This document shows positions 4,364 to 19,592 of a stretch of 64,000 nt of DNA, piece by piece. Source of the stretch: an uncultured Caryophanales bacterium (lineage in GTDB: Bacteria > Bacillota_I > Bacilli_A > RFN20 > CAG-826); NCBI GenBank assembly GCA_946407815.1, contig CAMJPB010000001.1, positions 248,001-312,000 on the forward strand. Reading direction: 5' to 3'. The position numbers and the translations under genes were made by a program. The notes under the pieces were generated by a model. That model was not told where the DNA came from, made no database searches, and saw nothing but the letters and a program-made list of their open reading frames with translations. Each line of letters begins with the position of its first letter. The first letter of the stretch is position 1.

Positions 4364-4396
4364 AAAATTAGTAGAAAATTAGTAGAAAATTAGTAG
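4364..4396 (+). repeat. TTAGTAG tandem repeat, site A (3 perfect 11-bp copies)
   Basis: Three consecutive copies of AAAATTAGTAG between xseB and dxs, followed by TTTTATAG and 11 nt later the dxs start. The same 11-bp period occurs after three other genes in the window (11980, 20457, 49321 minus strand). No function is known to me. The copies hold stop triplets but no plausible hairpin. Confidence 0.9.
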
Positions 4397-6364: not shown

Positions 6365-7573
6365 ATGAGCAAGATTATTCTTCACATCGATTTGAATGCC
6401 TTTTTCGTTAGATGCGAAGAAATTAAGAATCCGTCCTTAGAAGGAAAGCCAGTCATCATCGGAAGAAATGGTCGTGGTGGCATTGTTTCAACTTGTTCTT
6501 ATGCCGCTAGAGAATACGGTGTTAGATCAGGAATGCCAACCTACCAAGCATTGCTTAAGTGCCCAAATGTCATCTTAATTGAAGGTGATTATCATTACTA
6601 TCAACAAAAATCGAACGAGTTTTTCGCGTTCATTAAAAAATATACAACCAAAGTTGAACCTGCATCAATTGATGAATGTTTTGCCGATTTTACTGATGTT
6701 TTGAAAGGTAACAAAGAGCCAATATCTTATTTAAGAGAGATGCAAAAAGAACTCTTTAAGGAGACAAAACTTAAATGTTCAATCGGTGTTGCCCCTACAA
6801 AATTCCTCGCTAAAATGGCTTCTGATATGAAAAAGCCTAATGGCTTAGTAGTAATCCGCAAGAAAGATGCAAAGGCAAAGTTAGCACCTCTGCCAATCGA
6901 GGATTTCTTTGGAATTGGTAAGAAAACTTCACCTAGATTGCGCAAAATTGGCATCAACACAATTGGTGATTTAATCAAAAGAATCGATGAAGAAGATCCA
7001 CAAATTAAACAAGAATTAGGTAAGTTTTACTATGTAATTTCCGATTGGATTAACGGAAAAGGTGATGATGAGGTTAATACTCAGCCGTGGGATCCAAAAT
7101 CAGTCGGTCATTCTACAACGTTATTTAGTGATGCTTTATCGGTAGAAGAGCTCGAAAAACCTTTAAGAGAGCTCTCAGAAGAAGTTGCAAGAGACGCTCA
7201 AAAAGAAGGCAAGAAAGGCAAAACCATCCAACTTGTCTTAAAAGACAATGAATTTAAGATTATCAATAGATCTAAACGCCTGCCTCAAATGTCGAACAGT
7301 TTTGATGATATTTTCAAAACAGCCTTTGAACTTCTAGAAGAAAACTACGATGGACGTCCGATTAGACTTATTGGAGTAACACTTCAACAATTAAAGAATC
7401 CAAAAGAAACTTACGAACAATTATCAATATTTGATAACTATGAGCAAATTAAAGAAGAAAATCAAACTAGATTACTCATTGGCGAACTCAATCGAGCGAT
7501 GAATAAATCTGTTTTCAAAACGGCCGCAGACCACCTAAAGGAAAGAGAATATGACACTAAACGAGGCAAGTGA
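6365..7573 (+). CDS. dinB: DNA polymerase IV (Y-family)
   Basis: Translesion DNA polymerase, 402 aa. The first catalytic aspartate is in IDLNAFFVRCEE at residue 8-9, with steric-gate phenylalanines next to it. The second acidic pair is in SIDECFADFT near residue 103. The CSIGVAPTKFLAKMASDMKKP segment and the helix-hairpin-helix thumb (FFGIGKKTSPRLRKIGI) follow, then the little-finger domain. The C-terminal end has QLSIFDNYEQ, resembling a beta-clamp-binding QLxLF peptide near residue 358. It overlaps xerD by 23 nt. The stop is UGA. Confidence 0.94.
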   Translation: MSKIILHIDLNAFFVRCEEIKNPSLEGKPVIIGRNGRGGIVSTCSYAAREYGVRSGMPTYQALLKCPNVILIEGDYHYYQQKSNEFFAFIKKYTTKVEPASIDECFADFTDVLKGNKEPISYLREMQKELFKETKLKCSIGVAPTKFLAKMASDMKKPNGLVVIRKKDAKAKLAPLPIEDFFGIGKKTSPRLRKIGINTIGDLIKRIDEEDPQIKQELGKFYYVISDWINGKGDDEVNTQPWDPKSVGHSTTLFSDALSVEELEKPLRELSEEVARDAQKEGKKGKTIQLVLKDNEFKIINRSKRLPQMSNSFDDIFKTAFELLEENYDGRPIRLIGVTLQQLKNPKETYEQLSIFDNYEQIKEENQTRLLIGELNRAMNKSVFKTAADHLKEREYDTKRGK

Positions 7574-8429
7574 GTTATATTTTCAATACCTTAGAGTGGA
7601 AAAAGGTGTTTCTATTGAAACAATACAGAATTATCTGTACGATTTAAGACAATTTTTCACTTTTTTGAACAAACAAACAACTGATGATTTGAGAAGTGAT
7701 GACATCCAGGAATTCGTGCGAATCCAAACGCAGAACATGCTTTCGGTTCCAACGATTCTTAGACGCATCTCTTGCACTAAAAACTTCTATCTTTTCTTAG
7801 AAAAAGAGCATTTAATCTCGTTCCAAATAGACTTACTTGATAAACCAAAAGGCGCTAAAAAGTTGCCGGTTTGTATCTCAACAGAAGAGGTGGAAGCTTT
7901 GCTTAATGCGCCAAATTTAGATAAACCGGAAGGGCAAAGAGACAAAGCTATGCTCGAAGTAATGTACTCATCCGGTTTACGAATTAGTGAGCTCCTATCG
8001 CTCAGATTGAAACAACTAAATTTTGAACGAGGAATGATCAAAATCATCGGTAAAGGTGATAAAGAAAGAATCGTTCCAATCGGTGAATATGCCACCGAAT
8101 ACTTATTAAAGTATATCAACGACGGAAGAAAGAAAAATCCTGGCAAAAACTCTGAATACATCTTCCTAAATCGTTATGGAGAGCCAGTTTCGAGAGTTTA
8201 TTTTTTCAAACAAGTTAAAAAATACGCTGAACAAGCTAATATTTATACTGAAATTTCGCCTCATACGCTTAGACATTGCTTTGCAACTCATATGTTAGAG
8301 AACGGCGCAGAGCTAAGAGCAGTGCAGGAAATGCTTGGACACGCTAATATAGCGACCACACAAATATACACAAACATCTCGAGCAAACGAATTTTAAGCG
8401 CATATGATTTGTATAGTAAGCGAAAATAG
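7551..8429 (+). CDS. xerD: Tyrosine recombinase XerD
   Basis: Site-specific recombinase, 292 aa, expected to resolve chromosome dimers at dif with a XerC partner. N-terminal SAM-like core-binding domain about 1-85; catalytic domain with Arg in YSSGLRISELL (about 144), Lys in the IIGKGDKERIVP beta hairpin, HTLRH (His and second Arg, about 239), HANIATTQIY with the nucleophile Tyr at 273. The gene order dinB-xerD-deoB resembles Firmicute xerD-drm. A dif-like site lies about 3.7 kb downstream at 12105. Only one Xer gene is in the window, so the XerC partner must be elsewhere. XerD versus XerC is assigned by neighbourhood (deoB) rather than by a decisive residue. Confidence 0.88.
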   Translation: MTLNEASELYFQYLRVEKGVSIETIQNYLYDLRQFFTFLNKQTTDDLRSDDIQEFVRIQTQNMLSVPTILRRISCTKNFYLFLEKEHLISFQIDLLDKPKGAKKLPVCISTEEVEALLNAPNLDKPEGQRDKAMLEVMYSSGLRISELLSLRLKQLNFERGMIKIIGKGDKERIVPIGEYATEYLLKYINDGRKKNPGKNSEYIFLNRYGEPVSRVYFFKQVKKYAEQANIYTEISPHTLRHCFATHMLENGAELRAVQEMLGHANIATTQIYTNISSKRILSAYDLYSKRK

Positions 8430-8461: not shown

Positions 8462-9658
8462 ATGACTAAATTCAAAAGAGTATTCGTAATTGTTATTGAC
8501 TCAGTTGGCATTGGTGAAATGCCTGATGCTGAAAGATTTGGTGACAAAGGAACAAATACTTTTGTTCATACAGCAGAAAAATGCGGTGGACTTAATGTCC
8601 CTGTAATGAATTCATTAGGTTTAGGAGATCTTGCTCCAGTCAAAGGAACAACAAAAGTTGCTCACCCACAAGCTTACTGTGCCCGTCTACGTGAAGCCTC
8701 AAACGGTAAAGACACAATGACAGGTCACTGGGAGATGATGGGAATTTACACAACAAAACCATTCGTCACATTTACAGATACAGGTTTCCCAAAGGAATTA
8801 ATGGATGAACTTGCCGAAAAGACAGGTCATAAATTAATCGGAAATAAAGCTGCTTCTGGTACCGAAATTCTAAAAGAATTAGGTGAAGAACAAATGAGAG
8901 ATAATTCTCTTATTGTCTACACATCTGCAGACTCAGTTCTTCAAATTGCAGCACACGAAGAAGTCACTGGTGTACAAGAATTGTACAGATGCTGTGAAAT
9001 CGCTCGTGAAATCTGTATGAAACCTGAATATTATGTTGGTCGTGTTATCGCTCGTCCTTACGTTGGAAAAGACAAAGACAGCTTCAAGAGAACACCAAAT
9101 AGACACGATTTAGCAGTCTCTCCAAGTGGCATAACTACAATGGATGTTCTGAAAGAACAAGGTTACATGGTTTCGTGTGTTGGTAAAATTGGAGACATCT
9201 TCAATCAATGCGGTGTTGTTAAAACTCAAAAGACCGTTTCAAATATGGACGGAATGGATAAAACAATTGATGAATGCGAACATCACGATTTCGAAGGTTT
9301 ATGCTACATCAACTTAGTTGAGTTCGATTCTGAATATGGTCATAGACGTAATCCAACAGGTTATGGCAAGTGTCTTGAAGAATTCGATAAGCGCTTAGGC
9401 GAACTTATTGAAGTTTCTAAAGAAAACGATTTGATTATCGTTACAGCCGATCACGGTAATGATCCAACTCACACCGGAACCGATCACACTAGAGAAAAAG
9501 TCCCATTCCTTGCTTATAGCAAGTCATTCAAAAATGGTAGATATCTCGAAGAAAGAGAATGCTTCGCTGATATCGGTGCAACAATCTTAGAGAACTTTGG
9601 ACTTAAAAAGGCTCCAAATCAAATTGGAACCCCAATCAAAGAACTTCTTGAAGATTAA
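8462..9658 (+). CDS. deoB: Phosphopentomutase
   Basis: Interconverts (deoxy)ribose 1-phosphate and 5-phosphate in nucleoside salvage; the product deoxyribose 5-phosphate is the substrate of DeoC, also encoded here at 36.8 kb. 398 aa alkaline-phosphatase-fold enzyme. N-terminal [13 protein letters not shown] provides the metal aspartate, [13 protein letters not shown] contains the threonine nucleophile region, and the C-terminal [18 protein letters not shown] carries the second metal site. Ribosome binding site AAAGGAG at normal spacing. It converges on the CRP-like gene with a 4-bp overlap at the stops. Confidence 0.97.
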
Positions 9659-11229: not shown

Positions 11230-11998
11230 GTATTTATTCCTTTTAGGCTTTCTATTTTTAATAGGAGTCTGGTTTTTAGTGTCTGTATTAATCGACCAAG
11301 GCTCCATGATTTTTCCTTCACCAATAAAAACATTCAAATTGATGTTTGAACTACTTGGACAAGGAAAAACCTACGGCTATTTAGGCTTTTCTATAATTAG
11401 ATTATTAGTTGGTTTTGGCATCTCAATGGTGTTAGCATTCCTTTTAGGAATATTGGTCAATAATAACGAAGCCTTATATAATTTCTTTACGCCTATTATC
11501 ACATTCTTTAAGGCAGCTCCTACCGCAACGTTTGTGTTCCTTTTCATCGTTTTAGTCGGTGGAAGAAACGCTCCAGCCTTTGTTGTAATTGTGATGACCT
11601 TCCCAATTCTTTATGAAGCGGTGGTAAGTGCGATCAGAAATACCGATCAAACAATCCTCGATGCCGCTCAAATGGATGGCTCAAACAAGCTTAAAACTTT
11701 GTTTTATATACAGTTACCTTTAGGCCTCCCATTCATTTCTCTCGGCCTTGTCTCAACATTCGGCATGGCTTTTAAGGTAGAAATAATGGCGGAAATTATC
11801 ACCGGTATCACTAAGGGCGGAATCGGAACAATGATAAATATTAACAACTATCTTGATCCAACTAACCTTGAGCCGATGTTTGCCTACTCATTAATGGCCA
11901 TAATCCTTGTTTTAGTGGTGTCAATAGTGGCGTCAATTTTGAAGAATAAATTAAGTGGAAATAAGCCTTCAAAAAATACAAAATTAGTAGAAAATTAG
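11198..11998 (+). CDS. ABC transporter permease (SsuC/TauC-like)
   Basis: Membrane component of a binding-protein-dependent importer, 266 aa with about six hydrophobic segments. The EAA loop that docks the ATPase is visible as DAAQMDGSNKLKTLFYIQLPLGLP near residues 160-180. It overlaps the lipoprotein gene by 32 nt; a second ATG at 11210 is an equally possible start, as neither has an ideal ribosome binding site. Its last codons and stop (KLVEN, TAG) are themselves made of the TTAGTAG repeat. A cognate ATPase is missing downstream, where the strand changes and the dif-like site lies. Confidence 0.85.
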   Translation: MELRMKVLRNKYLFLLGFLFLIGVWFLVSVLIDQGSMIFPSPIKTFKLMFELLGQGKTYGYLGFSIIRLLVGFGISMVLAFLLGILVNNNEALYNFFTPIITFFKAAPTATFVFLFIVLVGGRNAPAFVVIVMTFPILYEAVVSAIRNTDQTILDAAQMDGSNKLKTLFYIQLPLGLPFISLGLVSTFGMAFKVEIMAEIITGITKGGIGTMININNYLDPTNLEPMFAYSLMAIILVLVVSIVASILKNKLSGNKPSKNTKLVEN

Positions 11999-12001
11999 TA
12001 G
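11980..12001 (+). repeat. TTAGTAG tandem repeat, site B (2 perfect copies)
   Basis: Two copies of AAAATTAGTAG forming the last codons and stop of the permease gene, then TTTTATACGG. Identical in unit to site A at 4364. Confidence 0.9.
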
Positions 12002-12104: not shown

Positions 12105-12132
12105 GGTTAACATAATGGACATTATACGAAGT
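12105..12132 (-). other. dif: dif-like XerC/XerD recombination site
   Basis: Read on the minus strand: XerC arm ACTTCGTATAA, 6-bp centre TGTCCA, XerD arm TTATGTTAACC. The 11+6+11 layout and the arms match known dif sites: by eye about 21 of 28 positions agree with the B. subtilis dif and about 20 with the E. coli dif as I remember them, and the XerD arm core TTATGTTAA is identical to E. coli. Gene direction flips here, from nearly all plus on the left to nearly all minus on the right, as expected at the replication terminus. It sits in the 159-bp gap between converging genes. Confidence 0.82.
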
Positions 12133-12157
12133 TCTTATATAATTAAAAAGGATGAAA

Positions 12158-13255
12158 TTATTTCAAATACATTTCGAAACATTCATCAGTGAGTTTATTT
12201 GTGATATCTTTTTTAGCTCCAAGTAAATATTTTCTATTGTCTTCCAAAGTTGTTAAAAATCCTTGTTTCCAATCTTCCATACAGGCATTAATTAACCAAG
12301 TTGAATCAAATTCTCTGGTTGGTTCGATCTTATCACAAGCATAAACGACCATTCCAAGCGGGCTCATGTTTGCCTTTCCTGTGCAATGAAATTTAATTGC
12401 GTCTAAAATTTCAGGATCTTCAACGCCTAATTTGGTTTTTGCTAAAAATTCACCTGCGAATTGATGATAAGCGAAATTTGGAATATCCAAATATTCTGGA
12501 TAATAATCTTTCATTATCTTCAAAAGGTTTTCATCTTCTTTGTAATAACCTTTGCCTAAATCATGTAAAAGAGCAGCGAAATAATACTTATATAAAGGCT
12601 CTAATTTATTAACTTCCGCCACTTTTAAAGCCAAATTTGCGACTTCAATTGAGTGATTTAAACGCTTTTCAGGGATAAAAAATGCAACTTTCTTTACAAA
12701 GTAAAGACGATTCTTTTCAATGTATTCTAGGACTTCAAAAGGTAAATCCACCGATTTCATATCTTTAATTGCTGAAGATGATACTTCACCGCTTTTATCA
12801 AAACCTAAATCGATCATATTAAATTCTTTAATATTGTTCTCATTAAAGTCATTTTCAGGCCTATAACAATACACAATTTGAACTAGTTTAGATAATTCTT
12901 TAGCATCTTTCCAATCTTGGAACTTATTGACCTGATCCGCGCCAATTAAAAAATACAAATTATCATCCTTGTGGATGTTTTTAAGATATTTTACTGTATC
13001 AATTGAATAATTAACTTCCGTGTTTGAATTTAATTCAAATTCACAAATTTCGTAGTCAAAACTAACGCCTTTTAGAGCGATTTTCAGCATTTCTAATCTT
13101 TGATTAGAACTGACTTCTGGTGATTTCCATCTAGGAGCTTTTGATGGCACAAAAATGAGCGAAGCATTGAACTTCTTTGCTGCTGCCTCGGCCATTCTTA
13201 AATGGCCATTATGAACAGGGTCAAATGTGCCGCCAAAAACAACGAAATTTTTCAT
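12158..13255 (-). CDS. nadD: NadD-YqeK fusion: nicotinate-nucleotide adenylyltransferase plus HD-domain hydrolase
   Basis: 365 aa, two proteins in one. Residues 1-190 are NadD, which makes deamido-NAD from NaMN and ATP, with the nucleotidyltransferase motif GGTFDPVHNGH (8-18) and SSSAIKD (the SxxxR/SSTxIR region). Residues 195-365 are an HD-domain phosphohydrolase of the YqeK type: HSIEVAN (about 203), ALLHDLGKG (about 229), YHQFAGE, and FHCTGKANMSPLG. YqeK proteins hydrolyse Ap4A. In B. subtilis these are neighbouring genes; the fusion is known from Mollicutes. The gene directly follows yqeH. aroE, yhbY and rsfS, which flank it in Bacilli, are absent. Confidence 0.93.
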   Translation of the reverse strand: MKNFVVFGGTFDPVHNGHLRMAEAAAKKFNASLIFVPSKAPRWKSPEVSSNQRLEMLKIALKGVSFDYEICEFELNSNTEVNYSIDTVKYLKNIHKDDNLYFLIGADQVNKFQDWKDAKELSKLVQIVYCYRPENDFNENNIKEFNMIDLGFDKSGEVSSSAIKDMKSVDLPFEVLEYIEKNRLYFVKKVAFFIPEKRLNHSIEVANLALKVAEVNKLEPLYKYYFAALLHDLGKGYYKEDENLLKIMKDYYPEYLDIPNFAYHQFAGEFLAKTKLGVEDPEILDAIKFHCTGKANMSPLGMVVYACDKIEPTREFDSTWLINACMEDWKQGFLTTLEDNRKYLLGAKKDITNKLTDECFEMYLK

Positions 13256-15031: not shown

Positions 15032-17650
15032 TTATAAGTCATCATCATCGAAGATTGAGATTTGAGTGTAACCTGTCTCTTTATCTGGTTCTTCCTTCTT
15101 AGAAGGAATTTCTTCGATAATTTCAGCTTCTTGAAGTTCTTCTTGCACTGGAACTTCAATCATATTTGAGACTGTTGAGGCTAAGATTCTATCTTTGCCT
15201 TCAATAAATGGAATTTCGAGTGTAATTTTCTTTCCAAGATCAATCGAATCGTGACAATAATAGTCCATCGGAGTCAAATGATAGTCATTTACGTTAACTT
15301 CTTTGACTTCCTTCATGTTTGTGAGGAATCTAATTATATTAGATTCAATTGAAGTATCAACTTTGAAGGCATACACCAATTTGTGCTCTTCAGATTTGAA
15401 TGATTTGAAGACCTGAGTTGGTCTACCTAAACGAGTGACGAAATTGGTCTTATCTGGGTCATAAATTCTGACCGCTCCTTTGTCGGTAATTAAGCCAATT
15501 TTTCCCGCATAGTTATCCTTTGGATAAACAAGAAGATTTACGATACACGCTGAACCAAGTTTTGAGATGCCTTTTACACCGCCACTTCTCATGCCTGAAT
15601 TTGGTAGTTCATTTTCGTTATAGAATGTGGCATTTCCATCACTTGTAAAGAGCATTAAATCGCTATTTCCGTCGGTAAATGCGACGTCTGCGAGTTCATC
15701 ATCTTGTAGTAATTTCATACAAATGAGAGCTTTTGAATAACGAATTACCGAGAAGTTATCTAAAGATAAACGCTTAATTTGTCCACGTTTTGAAACAAGC
15801 ACAAAGAACAAATCATTTTTAAACTTCTCTATTGCGTACACACGCACTATTTTTTCATTAGGATTTAAAGAAATCTTAAAATTGATGTGTTTTCCTTCAT
15901 CTTTCCACTTAGAACTTGGAATTTCATAAACTGGAATGTAAAGGAAATTACCTAAGTTTGTAAAGCTGATTAAGTAGTCAGTTGTCATAACTTGACCTGA
16001 AAATACGCACACATCGCCATCTTTTAAGCCAGGAAGTGGGTTTTCTCCACTGCTTGCATATGATTTTATTGTTGATTGTTTGAAGTAACCGTCACGAGAA
16101 ACAGCAACCATGACTTCCTCTTTGGAAATGAGGTCACGAACGTCAATTTGTTTAGTCTCTTCTTTCTCGATAATTTGGGTCTTTCTGTCGTGTCCGTATT
16201 TGTCAGAAATTGTCTTCAAATCTTTGATCAAAAGGCGGTTCAATTTATCACGATTTTCGAGGATTCCGTTGAGAAATTCGATGTTCTCTTCAAGGGCTCG
16301 TTTTTCGTTCTCTAAAGTTGTAATATCTGTGTTAGACAACTTATAAAGTTGTAACATAACAATTGCTTCACTTTGGGCCTCGTTAAAACCGAACTTATTT
16401 TGGATGTTTTTCTTGGCATCTTGCTTGTCTTTTGAAGCACGAATTGTTTCAACAACTTGATCCAAAATTGAGATGGCTTTTATGAGCCCGTTTACGATGT
16501 CCAAACGGCCTTTAGATTTCGCTAAATCGAAGGTCGATCTACGGGTAATTACATCGACTTGATGATCGATATATGAGTCAACAAAATCGAGCAAATTCAT
16601 GGTTTTTGGAGAACCATTTACGATGGCAACCATATTTGCAGAATAGCTCATTTTCAAGCCAGATTTTGTCATCAAATAGTTGTAAATAACATCAATTTTA
16701 GCGTCTTTTTTAATCTCAATAACGATTCTAATTCCGTTTCTATCAGATTCATCTCTAACTTCAGCAATACCTGGTAAAACATTATTATGTTTTAACATGT
16801 CAATTTCGTGAACAAGTTGAATCTTTTGGGCTTTATATGGAATTTCGGTAACAATTATGGCTTTTTCTTTATTTGTATCAATTATTTCGGCTTTTGCAGC
16901 AACTTCGATACGTCCTCTACCTTCAAGATAAATATCTTGAAGACCTTTAGAAGCATAAATAATTCCACCACTTGGGAAATCAGGACCTTTAATGAATTCC
17001 ATTAGGTCTAAAGGTTCGACTCTAACGTGGTTAATACGGTAAATTACGGCTTCAATAACCTCTTTGAGGTTATGTGTCGGAATATCAGTTGCCATACCAA
17101 CAGCAATACCTTCTGTTCCGTTAACAAGTAAATTAGGGAATCTTGAAGGTAAAACAACAGGTTCAAATTGGCTATCATCGAAGGTTAAAGCCATATCAAC
17201 GGTGTCTTTATCGATATCTCGAACCATTTCTTCCGCAATTTGGGATAATCTTGATTCGGTATAACGATAAGCTGCTGGTCCATCACCATCAATTGAGCCA
17301 TTATTACCTTGGAAATCGATTAAAGGAGCGTTATTTTTCCAATCTTGAGACATTCTAACTAAAGCCTCATAAATTGAAGAGTCTCCATGTGGATGATATT
17401 CACCCATAACAGCACCAACTGTGTGGGCACATTTCTTTGTTGGACGGGTAAAAATATTACCGTCTTTATACATAGTATAAATAATACGTCTTTGGACAGG
17501 TTTTAAACCATCTCTTGCGTCTGGAATTGCACGGTCTTGAATGACATATTTTGCGTATGTTGCAAAACGTGTTCCCATGATTTCTTCAAGGGTTTCGCTA
17601 TGGATATTTTCAACGATTTCTACTTCTGGAGTAATTTTCTTTTTCGCCAT
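15032..17650 (-). CDS. parC: DNA topoisomerase IV subunit A
   Basis: 872 aa. Cuts and rejoins DNA during decatenation of daughter chromosomes together with ParE. The winged-helix breakage domain has HTVGAVMGEYHPHGDSSIYEALVRM (about 77-100, the quinolone-determining region, with serines and glutamate of susceptible enzymes) and the active-site tyrosine Y130 in AAYRYTESRL. The C-terminal beta-pinwheel repeats run from about 490 to 790, with a charged tail. ParC rather than GyrA is inferred from its place behind parE next to divergent plsY, as in B. subtilis yneS/parE-parC. Strong GAGGAGGTG within the parE end; 1-nt gap. Confidence 0.93.
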   Translation of the reverse strand: MAKKKITPEVEIVENIHSETLEEIMGTRFATYAKYVIQDRAIPDARDGLKPVQRRIIYTMYKDGNIFTRPTKKCAHTVGAVMGEYHPHGDSSIYEALVRMSQDWKNNAPLIDFQGNNGSIDGDGPAAYRYTESRLSQIAEEMVRDIDKDTVDMALTFDDSQFEPVVLPSRFPNLLVNGTEGIAVGMATDIPTHNLKEVIEAVIYRINHVRVEPLDLMEFIKGPDFPSGGIIYASKGLQDIYLEGRGRIEVAAKAEIIDTNKEKAIIVTEIPYKAQKIQLVHEIDMLKHNNVLPGIAEVRDESDRNGIRIVIEIKKDAKIDVIYNYLMTKSGLKMSYSANMVAIVNGSPKTMNLLDFVDSYIDHQVDVITRRSTFDLAKSKGRLDIVNGLIKAISILDQVVETIRASKDKQDAKKNIQNKFGFNEAQSEAIVMLQLYKLSNTDITTLENEKRALEENIEFLNGILENRDKLNRLLIKDLKTISDKYGHDRKTQIIEKEETKQIDVRDLISKEEVMVAVSRDGYFKQSTIKSYASSGENPLPGLKDGDVCVFSGQVMTTDYLISFTNLGNFLYIPVYEIPSSKWKDEGKHINFKISLNPNEKIVRVYAIEKFKNDLFFVLVSKRGQIKRLSLDNFSVIRYSKALICMKLLQDDELADVAFTDGNSDLMLFTSDGNATFYNENELPNSGMRSGGVKGISKLGSACIVNLLVYPKDNYAGKIGLITDKGAVRIYDPDKTNFVTRLGRPTQVFKSFKSEEHKLVYAFKVDTSIESNIIRFLTNMKEVKEVNVNDYHLTPMDYYCHDSIDLGKKITLEIPFIEGKDRILASTVSNMIEVPVQEELQEAEIIEEIPSKKEEPDKETGYTQISIFDDDDL

Positions 17651-17651
17651 A

Positions 17652-19592
17652 TTACTTCACCTCCTCAATAAAGGAGTCAACTTCGTTGAAATTGATGTTT
17701 TCTTCAATCCATTGACGTCTAGTTTGTGGATCATTACCCATAAGGGTAATAAGTCTTTGTTCTGCAACTAAAGAATCTTCAATAGTAACTTTGAGTAAAA
17801 CTCTGGATTTTGGATCCATTGTCGATTCTTTGAGTTGATCGTCATTCATTTCGCCTAAACCTTTGAATCGTTTTACTTTACAACCGTATCCGATTCTAGC
17901 TTTTGCCTGATCTAAACCCTCATCATCCCAGGCATATTCGTACTTCTTTTTGTCGTTTTCTTTATATATTAAATATAAAGGAGGTAACGCAACGAACAAT
18001 TTTCCTTTCAAAATGAGTGGTCTCATAAAGTTGTAGAAGAAAGTGATTAAAAGTGTTTGAATGTGCGCTCCATCGGTATCAGCATCAGTCATAATGATAA
18101 CTTTCCCATAATGGGAATTGTCGGCATTAAATGTCTCTTTTACACCTGCTCCGATGGTATTAATTAGGGTTGCACATTCTTCATTTTTGAGAACTTTATC
18201 GATTGGCAACCCGAAAGTGTTTAAAGGTTTACCACGTAGTGGTAATATCGCTTGATGCACTCTATCACGGCTCTTTTTCGCTGTTCCGCCAGCAGAATCA
18301 CCCTCAACTATGAAAAGTTCGTTCTTATCATAATCTTTACTAGCTGCAGGAGTTAACTTATCAGACAAGACTATGTCTTGTTTGATAGTTTTTCTAGAAC
18401 GCATCTCATCACGTACTTTTCTGGCTGCAATTCTGGTATTTTGAGCATCAACACATTTCTTGATCAAATTGACCGCGAACTCTTTGTGTTCTGCAAGATA
18501 ATAACTTAAGTTATTATAAATAAAGTTTGTAACGATTGGTAAAGCTTCAGGTGTACCTAGTTTTTGCTTGGTTTGACCCTCATATTCGAGCTTTTCTTCA
18601 GGAATTTTAAGAGAAATTACTGCAGTTAAGCCTTCTCTGATGTCTCCACCTTCGAGTTTTGTATTCTTTTTGATTAATCCATGCTCTTCGGCATAGTCAT
18701 TAATAGCTTTTGTAAGACCAGCTCTAAATCCTTGTTCATGAGTTCCGCCATCTCTAGTTCTTACGTTATTGGCGTATGAGTAGATATTTTCACTGTATTC
18801 TTGAACAGCATATTGCATTGCTATATCTATAGATATAGAATCATCAACACCTTCAAACGAAATGATGTCTCCAATGACGTTTTTGTCATGTTCAAGTGAG
18901 CTTATATATTCCTTTATACCGTCTTTATAACAAAACTCGACTTTTTCTCCACTTCTTTCGTCAGATAGCATGAATTTTACGCCTTTTAAAAGGAACGCAC
19001 TTTCTTGGATATGTGAAGAAATCATGTCGAACTTGAAGTCAGTTGTTGAGAAGATTCTTGCGTCTGGTTTGAAGCGGACTAAAGTGCCCTTTTTCTTGGT
19101 ACTACCAAGAACTTCAAGCGGAGTTACAAGTTTTCCACCATTTTCAAAACGAATATGATAGATTTGTCCACCCTTAAAAACGGTAACATCGCAGTATTCT
19201 GATAACGCATTTGTGACTGCAGAGCCAACGCCATGGAGTCCCGCAGATGATTGATAGGCTTTATTGGAAAACTTACCACCTGAGTGGAGTGTTGTGAAGA
19301 TCAATTGGACAGCAGGCATCTTAGTCTGTTGATGTATATCAACAGGAATTCCTCTTCCTTCATCTTCAACGCTCAAAGATCCATCCTTATGAATGGTAAT
19401 TTTGATCGTATTTCCGTAACCATTTAAGGCTTCATCAACAGCATTATCAACGATTTCCCAAACAAGGTGATGAACACCATAAAGGTTAGTTGAGCCGATG
19501 TACATTGCAGGTCTTTTTCTGACACCAGAAAGTCCCTCTAAAAGGTCAATATCAGCCGCTGTATATGATGATTTTGCTTTAATTTCTGCCAT
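17652..19592 (-). CDS. parE: DNA topoisomerase IV subunit B
   Basis: 646 aa ATPase subunit of topoisomerase IV. GHKL ATPase domain: EIVDNAVDEALNGYG, DEGRGIPVDIH, GLHGVGSAVTNALS. TOPRIM domain: ELFIVEGDSAGGTAK and MTDADTDGAHIQTLL; C-terminal FKGLGEMNDDQL. Length and the parC partner fit ParE. Starts with an AAAGGTAA ribosome binding site; a TATAAT at 19626-19631 (minus strand) lies about 34 nt before the start. Shares a short divergent promoter region with plsY. Confidence 0.93.
   Translation of the reverse strand: MAEIKAKSSYTAADIDLLEGLSGVRKRPAMYIGSTNLYGVHHLVWEIVDNAVDEALNGYGNTIKITIHKDGSLSVEDEGRGIPVDIHQQTKMPAVQLIFTTLHSGGKFSNKAYQSSAGLHGVGSAVTNALSEYCDVTVFKGGQIYHIRFENGGKLVTPLEVLGSTKKKGTLVRFKPDARIFSTTDFKFDMISSHIQESAFLLKGVKFMLSDERSGEKVEFCYKDGIKEYISSLEHDKNVIGDIISFEGVDDSISIDIAMQYAVQEYSENIYSYANNVRTRDGGTHEQGFRAGLTKAINDYAEEHGLIKKNTKLEGGDIREGLTAVISLKIPEEKLEYEGQTKQKLGTPEALPIVTNFIYNNLSYYLAEHKEFAVNLIKKCVDAQNTRIAARKVRDEMRSRKTIKQDIVLSDKLTPAASKDYDKNELFIVEGDSAGGTAKKSRDRVHQAILPLRGKPLNTFGLPIDKVLKNEECATLINTIGAGVKETFNADNSHYGKVIIMTDADTDGAHIQTLLITFFYNFMRPLILKGKLFVALPPLYLIYKENDKKKYEYAWDDEGLDQAKARIGYGCKVKRFKGLGEMNDDQLKESTMDPKSRVLLKVTIEDSLVAEQRLITLMGNDPQTRRQWIEENINFNEVDSFIEEVK

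Follow-up and report, generated by a model that had tools for sequence, protein, structure and literature searches.

We asked whether a 28-bp sequence at a switch in gene direction in the genome of an uncultured Caryophanales bacterium is the chromosomal dif, and what else has been kept beside it. The sequence lies in a stretch of 64,000 nucleotides from one contig (the window), and a sequence check gave GGTTAACATAATGGACATTATACGAAGT on the plus strand at 12105–12132. The initial annotation had described a dif-like site of 11 + 6 + 11 bp here. That site is a canonical XerC/XerD dif and the arm lengths stand, with the strand corrected: dif reads on the minus strand as ACTTCGTATAA-TGTCCA-TTATGTTAACC (XerC arm, 6-bp centre and XerD arm, the layout of Bacillota dif), so that the XerD arm falls at 12105–12115 and the XerC arm at 12122–12132. 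The XerD-arm core, TTATGTTAA, is identical to its E. coli counterpart, as had been noted. In the 736,588 bases available (two contigs of a 45.5% complete MAG), the 28-mer is the sole match at three or fewer mismatches, and the better site elsewhere that would count against the assignment is absent; the reversed pattern, used as a control, has zero matches in the same bases at the same threshold. As XerCD/dif requires, the site is 28 bp long with two 11-bp arms, a 6-bp centre and a conserved XerD arm, and it is intergenic, located at the skew-defined terminus and single-copy, as counted in a 45%-complete genome.

The terminus itself is marked by both base composition and gene direction. In sampled stretches of the same contig (C1), GC skew is positive to the left of the window (+0.028 to +0.100, nine of nine stretches) and negative to its right (−0.008 to −0.096, eight of eight), and within the window it is +0.049 to the left of dif and −0.057 to the right. 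Over a contiguous stretch of 90 kb, the cumulative skew reaches its maximum at window position 11456, 0.65 kb from dif, and the sign changes at dif; an extremum had been predicted at about 12.1 kb. Gene direction also switches at dif as had been noted, although the counts given (12 of 13 genes plus on the left, 45 of 49 minus on the right) were off by one or two: the list of open reading frames has about 11 of 12 genes on the plus strand to the left, the sole exception being a Crp/Fnr-like gene, and three plus genes to the right (plsY, ispG and ispH). The gene for DnaA, predicted to lie opposite, was not found in the available part of the MAG (45% complete). In relatives it is about half a chromosome from dif: the two are at 808,813 and 1,871,765 in a single-contig genome of 2,079,823 bp (G062), a separation of 51% of the chromosome, and dnaA is at 713 kb and dif at 184 kb in a genome of about 1.0 Mb (G018), and at 695 and 56 kb in one of about 1.2 Mb (G032). 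On contig C1 of the window's own genome, skew falls close to zero in one stretch of the right arm (L099 and L100, G000 C1:550001–600000), a possible inversion or approach to the origin. As a separate observation, gyrA and gyrB lie 3–7 kb from the terminus, unlike in many Bacillota, in which both are beside dnaA at the origin.

Exactly two proteins with a Phage_integrase domain are encoded in the available genome (two contigs, 45.5% complete). The one encoded at window 7551–8429 scores best as XerD (319.5 bits, slightly below the NCBIfam cut-off, versus 290.5 for XerC and 122.8 for XerS), and its gene ends 3.68 kb from dif, in agreement with the 3.7 kb first reported. The second is XerC, encoded on contig C2 beside trmFO, where xerC usually lies in Bacilli. 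The FtsK encoded at C1:201371 includes the gamma domain, which scores 32.8 bits (cut-off 30.6). The two-recombinase system is complete.

By analogy with other bacteria, XerC and XerD would bind the two 11-bp arms, XerD would be activated by FtsK arriving at the closing septum, and chromosome dimers would be resolved at dif, where the forks meet. Whereas we infer binding, strand exchange and FtsK activation from established XerCD/dif biology, we observe dif in single copy in the available genome, its place at the skew switch, both recombinases and the FtsK gamma domain; because that biology is established and the set of parts is complete, we assign the function with high confidence. The 28-mer could instead be a chance match or a relic, with dimers resolved elsewhere, and the genome is incomplete enough (a 45% MAG) that a second dif or another Xer gene could lie in the remainder. 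The single copy and the zero control matches argue against this, as does the position at the skew switch, and the site recurs at the same place and in the same orientation in about 50 species whose flanking sequence has diverged. This conservation effectively refutes a chance or relic origin, which we regard as having almost no probability. Window 12105–12132 is almost certainly the chromosomal dif of this uncultured Bacilli bacterium (Table 1), and dif itself is an ordinary further case of known XerCD/dif. As candidate FtsK loading motifs, the B. subtilis SRS (GAGAAGGG) and the E. coli KOPS (GGGNAGGG) both lack a useful frequency. GTGGTG and TGGTGG are directed towards dif in the genome of the window (20:1 and 19:2), even in anti-oriented and intergenic DNA, but the bias is weak in the loci of 67 relatives (26:12 and 39:25), and the claim of a loading motif was therefore dropped.

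Table 1 Features of the dif locus, in window coordinates
Feature	Position	Strand	Remarks
xerD, tyrosine recombinase gene	7551..8429	+	Linked to dif; best profile score XerD
deoB (phosphopentomutase)	8462..9658	+	Conserved neighbour of xerD, XerD-arm side; named from sequence and synteny
TTAGTAG-N4-TTAGTAG, 11-bp-phased pair	11984..12001	+	Points at dif from the XerD-arm side; conserved across the order; overlaps the end of an ABC permease gene
XerD arm of dif, TTATGTTAACC	12105..12115	-	Sequence, uniqueness, relatives; TTATGTWAAC kept across the class
6-bp central region of dif, TGTCCA	12116..12121	-	Sequence; differs between species
XerC arm of dif, ACTTCGTATAA	12122..12132	-	Sequence, uniqueness, relatives
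nadD-yqeK fusion	12158..13255	-	Nearest gene on the XerC-arm side; transcribed towards dif
gyrA and gyrB	15032..19592	-	3–7 kb from dif, XerC-arm side; position kept across the order and several other families

What makes the locus a variant worth specialist attention is a conserved linkage of xerD and an element at the side of dif. With CodV/RipX–dif of B. subtilis and dif of S. aureus it shares the 28-bp 11 + 6 + 11 site, the conserved XerD arm, two Xer recombinases, the FtsK gamma domain and the location at a skew-defined terminus. Unlike in the canonical Bacillota system, xerD is linked to dif, whereas the two are 172–236 kb apart in a staphylococcus-like family (f18) and about 0.5 Mb apart in B. 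subtilis. Genetic linkage of a recombinase gene to its site recalls XerS/difSL of streptococci and lactococci and XerH/difH of Campylobacterota (PMC2731167, PMC5357621). Those systems rely on a single recombinase and an atypical site (difSL is 31 bp long, its centre 11 bp), in contrast to the two recombinases and canonical 28-bp site found here, and membership in either was rejected on these grounds and on an XerS score of 122.8 bits against a cut-off of 267. In the open-access literature searched, recombinase–site linkage is reported only for the single-recombinase XerS and XerH systems, and xerD–dif linkage in two-recombinase bacteria is not reported.

Searching with XerD gave 80 loci, of which the nearest are from Bacilli/Erysipelotrichaceae MAGs, many of them from rumen and gut. 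With dif called at 18 or more of 22 arm positions, 48 loci have dif downstream of xerD at 1.3–7.2 kb, with no difference in orientation between them, and the contigs of the others mostly end too early. The alignment with related genomes that had been proposed as a check thus finds the same type of 28-mer at the same place in about 50 relatives. Gene direction in the 48 loci is 451 plus to 37 minus on the left of dif and 13 plus to 221 minus on the right, counts that include one false site: the dif-like match at L010 (18 of 22) is on the wrong side of xerD, has central bases and an XerD arm that are not dif-like, and was left out of the element analysis. Across the order, all 52 genomes that have both on one contig place dif downstream of xerD and no more than 12 kb from it (by tally), and only G008 and G014, of one family, have dif inverted relative to xerD. 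In other Bacilli families the two are linked in 31 of 41 genomes; besides the f18 range given above, unlinked distances are 51–65 kb (f19), 111 kb (f24) and 29 kb (G079). Families f11 and f22 gave no match to XerD or dif.

Such linkage could be the frozen synteny of a quiet terminus, with no selection for a recombinase gene beside its site, and we lean slightly towards this explanation. The terminus block is syntenic in the order, where tkt-ptsH-nusB-xseA-dxs-dinB-xerD-deoB, dif and nadD-yqeH-yqeG-gyrA-gyrB are largely kept and the segment between deoB and dif is variable; a few lineages (f18, f19 and f24) also lack the linkage. Against it, both the flanks of xerD and the genes beyond dif differ in other families while xerD stays nearest to dif, and gyrA-gyrB-plsY recurs across dif from xerD in several of them. 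Beyond xerD these families carry hemW-lepA, dxs-dinB, holA or efp-nusB-xseA; what lies past dif varies too, yet xerD or xerD-deoB remains the closest to the site. In family f8, dif is inverted relative to xerD and its far-side neighbours are different where visible, yet xerD is still 5–7 kb away.

Several dif sites have further peculiarities. On the XerC-arm side, window 12122–12134 (TATACGAAGTTCT) agrees with a loxP arm at 12 of 13 positions, and the dif of L013 has 16 consecutive bases in common with loxP; the likeness may be due to chance or may be a trace of an ancestry shared by Cre and Xer sites. One relative has two inverted copies of dif 147 bp apart (G069:C136:8708-8881), either an assembly artefact or a duplicated site. 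In f18 (L201, L203 and L204), a second, degenerate dif-like site lies inverted at a few to 25 bp from dif and may be an extra XerD-binding site.

The dif-side element emerged from a search of intergenic DNA for short words polar towards dif. This identified TTAGTAG, a pair of which (at least 12 of 14 positions) is present in 61 of 67 loci, versus 0.25 expected from dinucleotide shuffles and one to three loci in other-strand and other-side controls. The pair is 100–160 bp from dif in 60 of the 61 loci and has one orientation, with its start at 112–152 bp in nearly all. Clustered at 75% identity, the spacers between element and dif form 52 groups, so the element has been conserved while its background diverged. 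It is absent from the loci read in families f4 and f8 and in the other orders sampled. The pair is not exclusive to dif, because ten exact copies occur in the genome of the window, several of them at gene ends far from dif; in relatives, exact pairs are scarce away from dif and concentrated around it, about 19 of 30 (by tally) being on the xerD contig or no more than 20 kb from dif. Three 11-bp-phased copies of TTAGTAG also lie just upstream of dxs at window 4368–4396, and many relatives have a copy there. A dispersed repeat around GGAATTCCCGGGGATTTT is found at gene ends of the window's genome, near xerC and several TTAGTAG pairs (L002, L151, L152, L154, L157 and L158), and could be either a family of terminators or a site bound by a protein.

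A second motif accompanies the pair. In 46 of 67 loci, TGTGGA[AT]A occurs on the same strand no more than 200 bp from dif; the background rate is 0.012 per locus, and the opposite strand has 1. Exactly nine positions are strongly conserved (TGTGGA[AT]AA), and these are the DnaA box (TTWTCCACA) read backwards. The distance of the box from the start of the TTAGTAG pair clusters at about 26, 37 and 48 bp, in steps of 11 bp, and in seven loci TTAGTAG abuts a GTGGAWAA box (GTGGATAA or GTGGAAAA); the copy in the window has the pair but no recognisable DnaA box. The dif locus of the order is a conserved module: xerD-deoB, variable cargo, the TTAGTAG pair, in most cases a DnaA-box 9-mer or two, a terminator-like stretch, then dif. 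In other families, a perfect T[AT]TCCACA box core is found 46–56 bp from the XerD arm in 8 of about 39 loci, where it has the opposite orientation and in some cases forms a tandem pair, with no box at that position in loci of f13, f14, f15, f17, f18, f20 and f24. The open-access literature searched contains no mention of DnaA boxes at dif, and the literature searched has no description of a conserved TTAGTAG/DnaA-box element there. To our knowledge, canonical XerCD/dif is regarded as needing no accessory sequence.

The closest resemblance is to the BUS of oriC, a pair of DnaA boxes with DnaA-trios, for which the criterion is a DnaA box with three or more DnaA-trios no further than 16 bp away (PMC8287927). 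Both have a DnaA-box 9-mer and TAGTAG in the same relative order, and TAGTAG recalls the DnaA-trios (PMC8287927). Unlike the BUS, the element at dif is at the terminus, its TAGTAG units are 11-bp phased rather than contiguous triplets, and its spacer to the box is about 20 bp in most loci, with the seven abutting loci as exceptions. TTAGTAG as a part of oriC was rejected: the dnaA loci of 16 relatives have clusters of DnaA boxes and lack the pair.

With low confidence, we propose that the element is a binding site for DnaA, alone or with a partner protein, and modulates what happens at the terminus. DnaA is suggested by the 9-bp core, and a neighbouring protein on one face of the helix by the 11-bp phasing. 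In its fuller form, this is a speculative proposal that is more probably wrong than right: through a conserved DnaA-bound element (pair and boxes, about 60–150 bp from the XerD arm), the initiator of replication would be coupled to the terminus, for instance to set the time of Xer recombination or to titrate DnaA until the terminus is copied, and the perfect boxes that several other Bacilli families carry at −46 to −56 would be variants of this control. A role in transcription termination, or at the 3′ ends of the left-hand operon, and not at dif, is likewise a doubtful candidate, given that a number of copies elsewhere in the genome come after a stop codon or a terminator hairpin; at dif, however, the upstream gene varies (permease, Crp-like, deoB and others) while the distance to dif holds at 100–160 bp in 60 of 61 loci, and the DnaA boxes keep their places at about 26, 37 or 48 bp from the start of the pair.

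Two further readings invoke other DNA-binding proteins. TTAGTAG is CTACTAA on the other strand, and a Rok-like nucleoid protein could bind the repeats and recruit DnaA to the terminus: TACTA is a preferred site of B. subtilis Rok (PMC9757077), Rok is required in vivo for DnaA binding to some B. subtilis regions (PMC4447404), and the element at dif combines CTACTAA with DnaA boxes. We consider this rather unlikely, and the origin regions of the 16 relatives, with their box clusters and no pair, argue against it. A polar replication fork trap such as B. subtilis Ter/RTP would account for the clustering of exact pairs near dif (about 19 of 30 in relatives), most of them oriented towards it. However, RTP homologues are found in none of 13 genomes of the order by a model that recovers the B. 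subtilis control, so membership in that class was rejected, and polarity is inconsistent, with the copies at 268461 in G000 and 192386 in G076 pointing away from dif; on both counts an RTP-type trap is unlikely, and we give any fork trap of this kind little credence.

The assignment of dif fixes the terminus of an uncultured rumen and gut lineage of Bacilli and aids the ordering of its genomes. What is new is a two-recombinase system in which xerD has been kept beside dif across an order and much of a class, and a DnaA-box element whose distance from dif has stayed fixed amid flanking sequence that turns over. If this element is bound by DnaA, a single regulator would serve both initiation and termination of replication, and would do so at a defined site.
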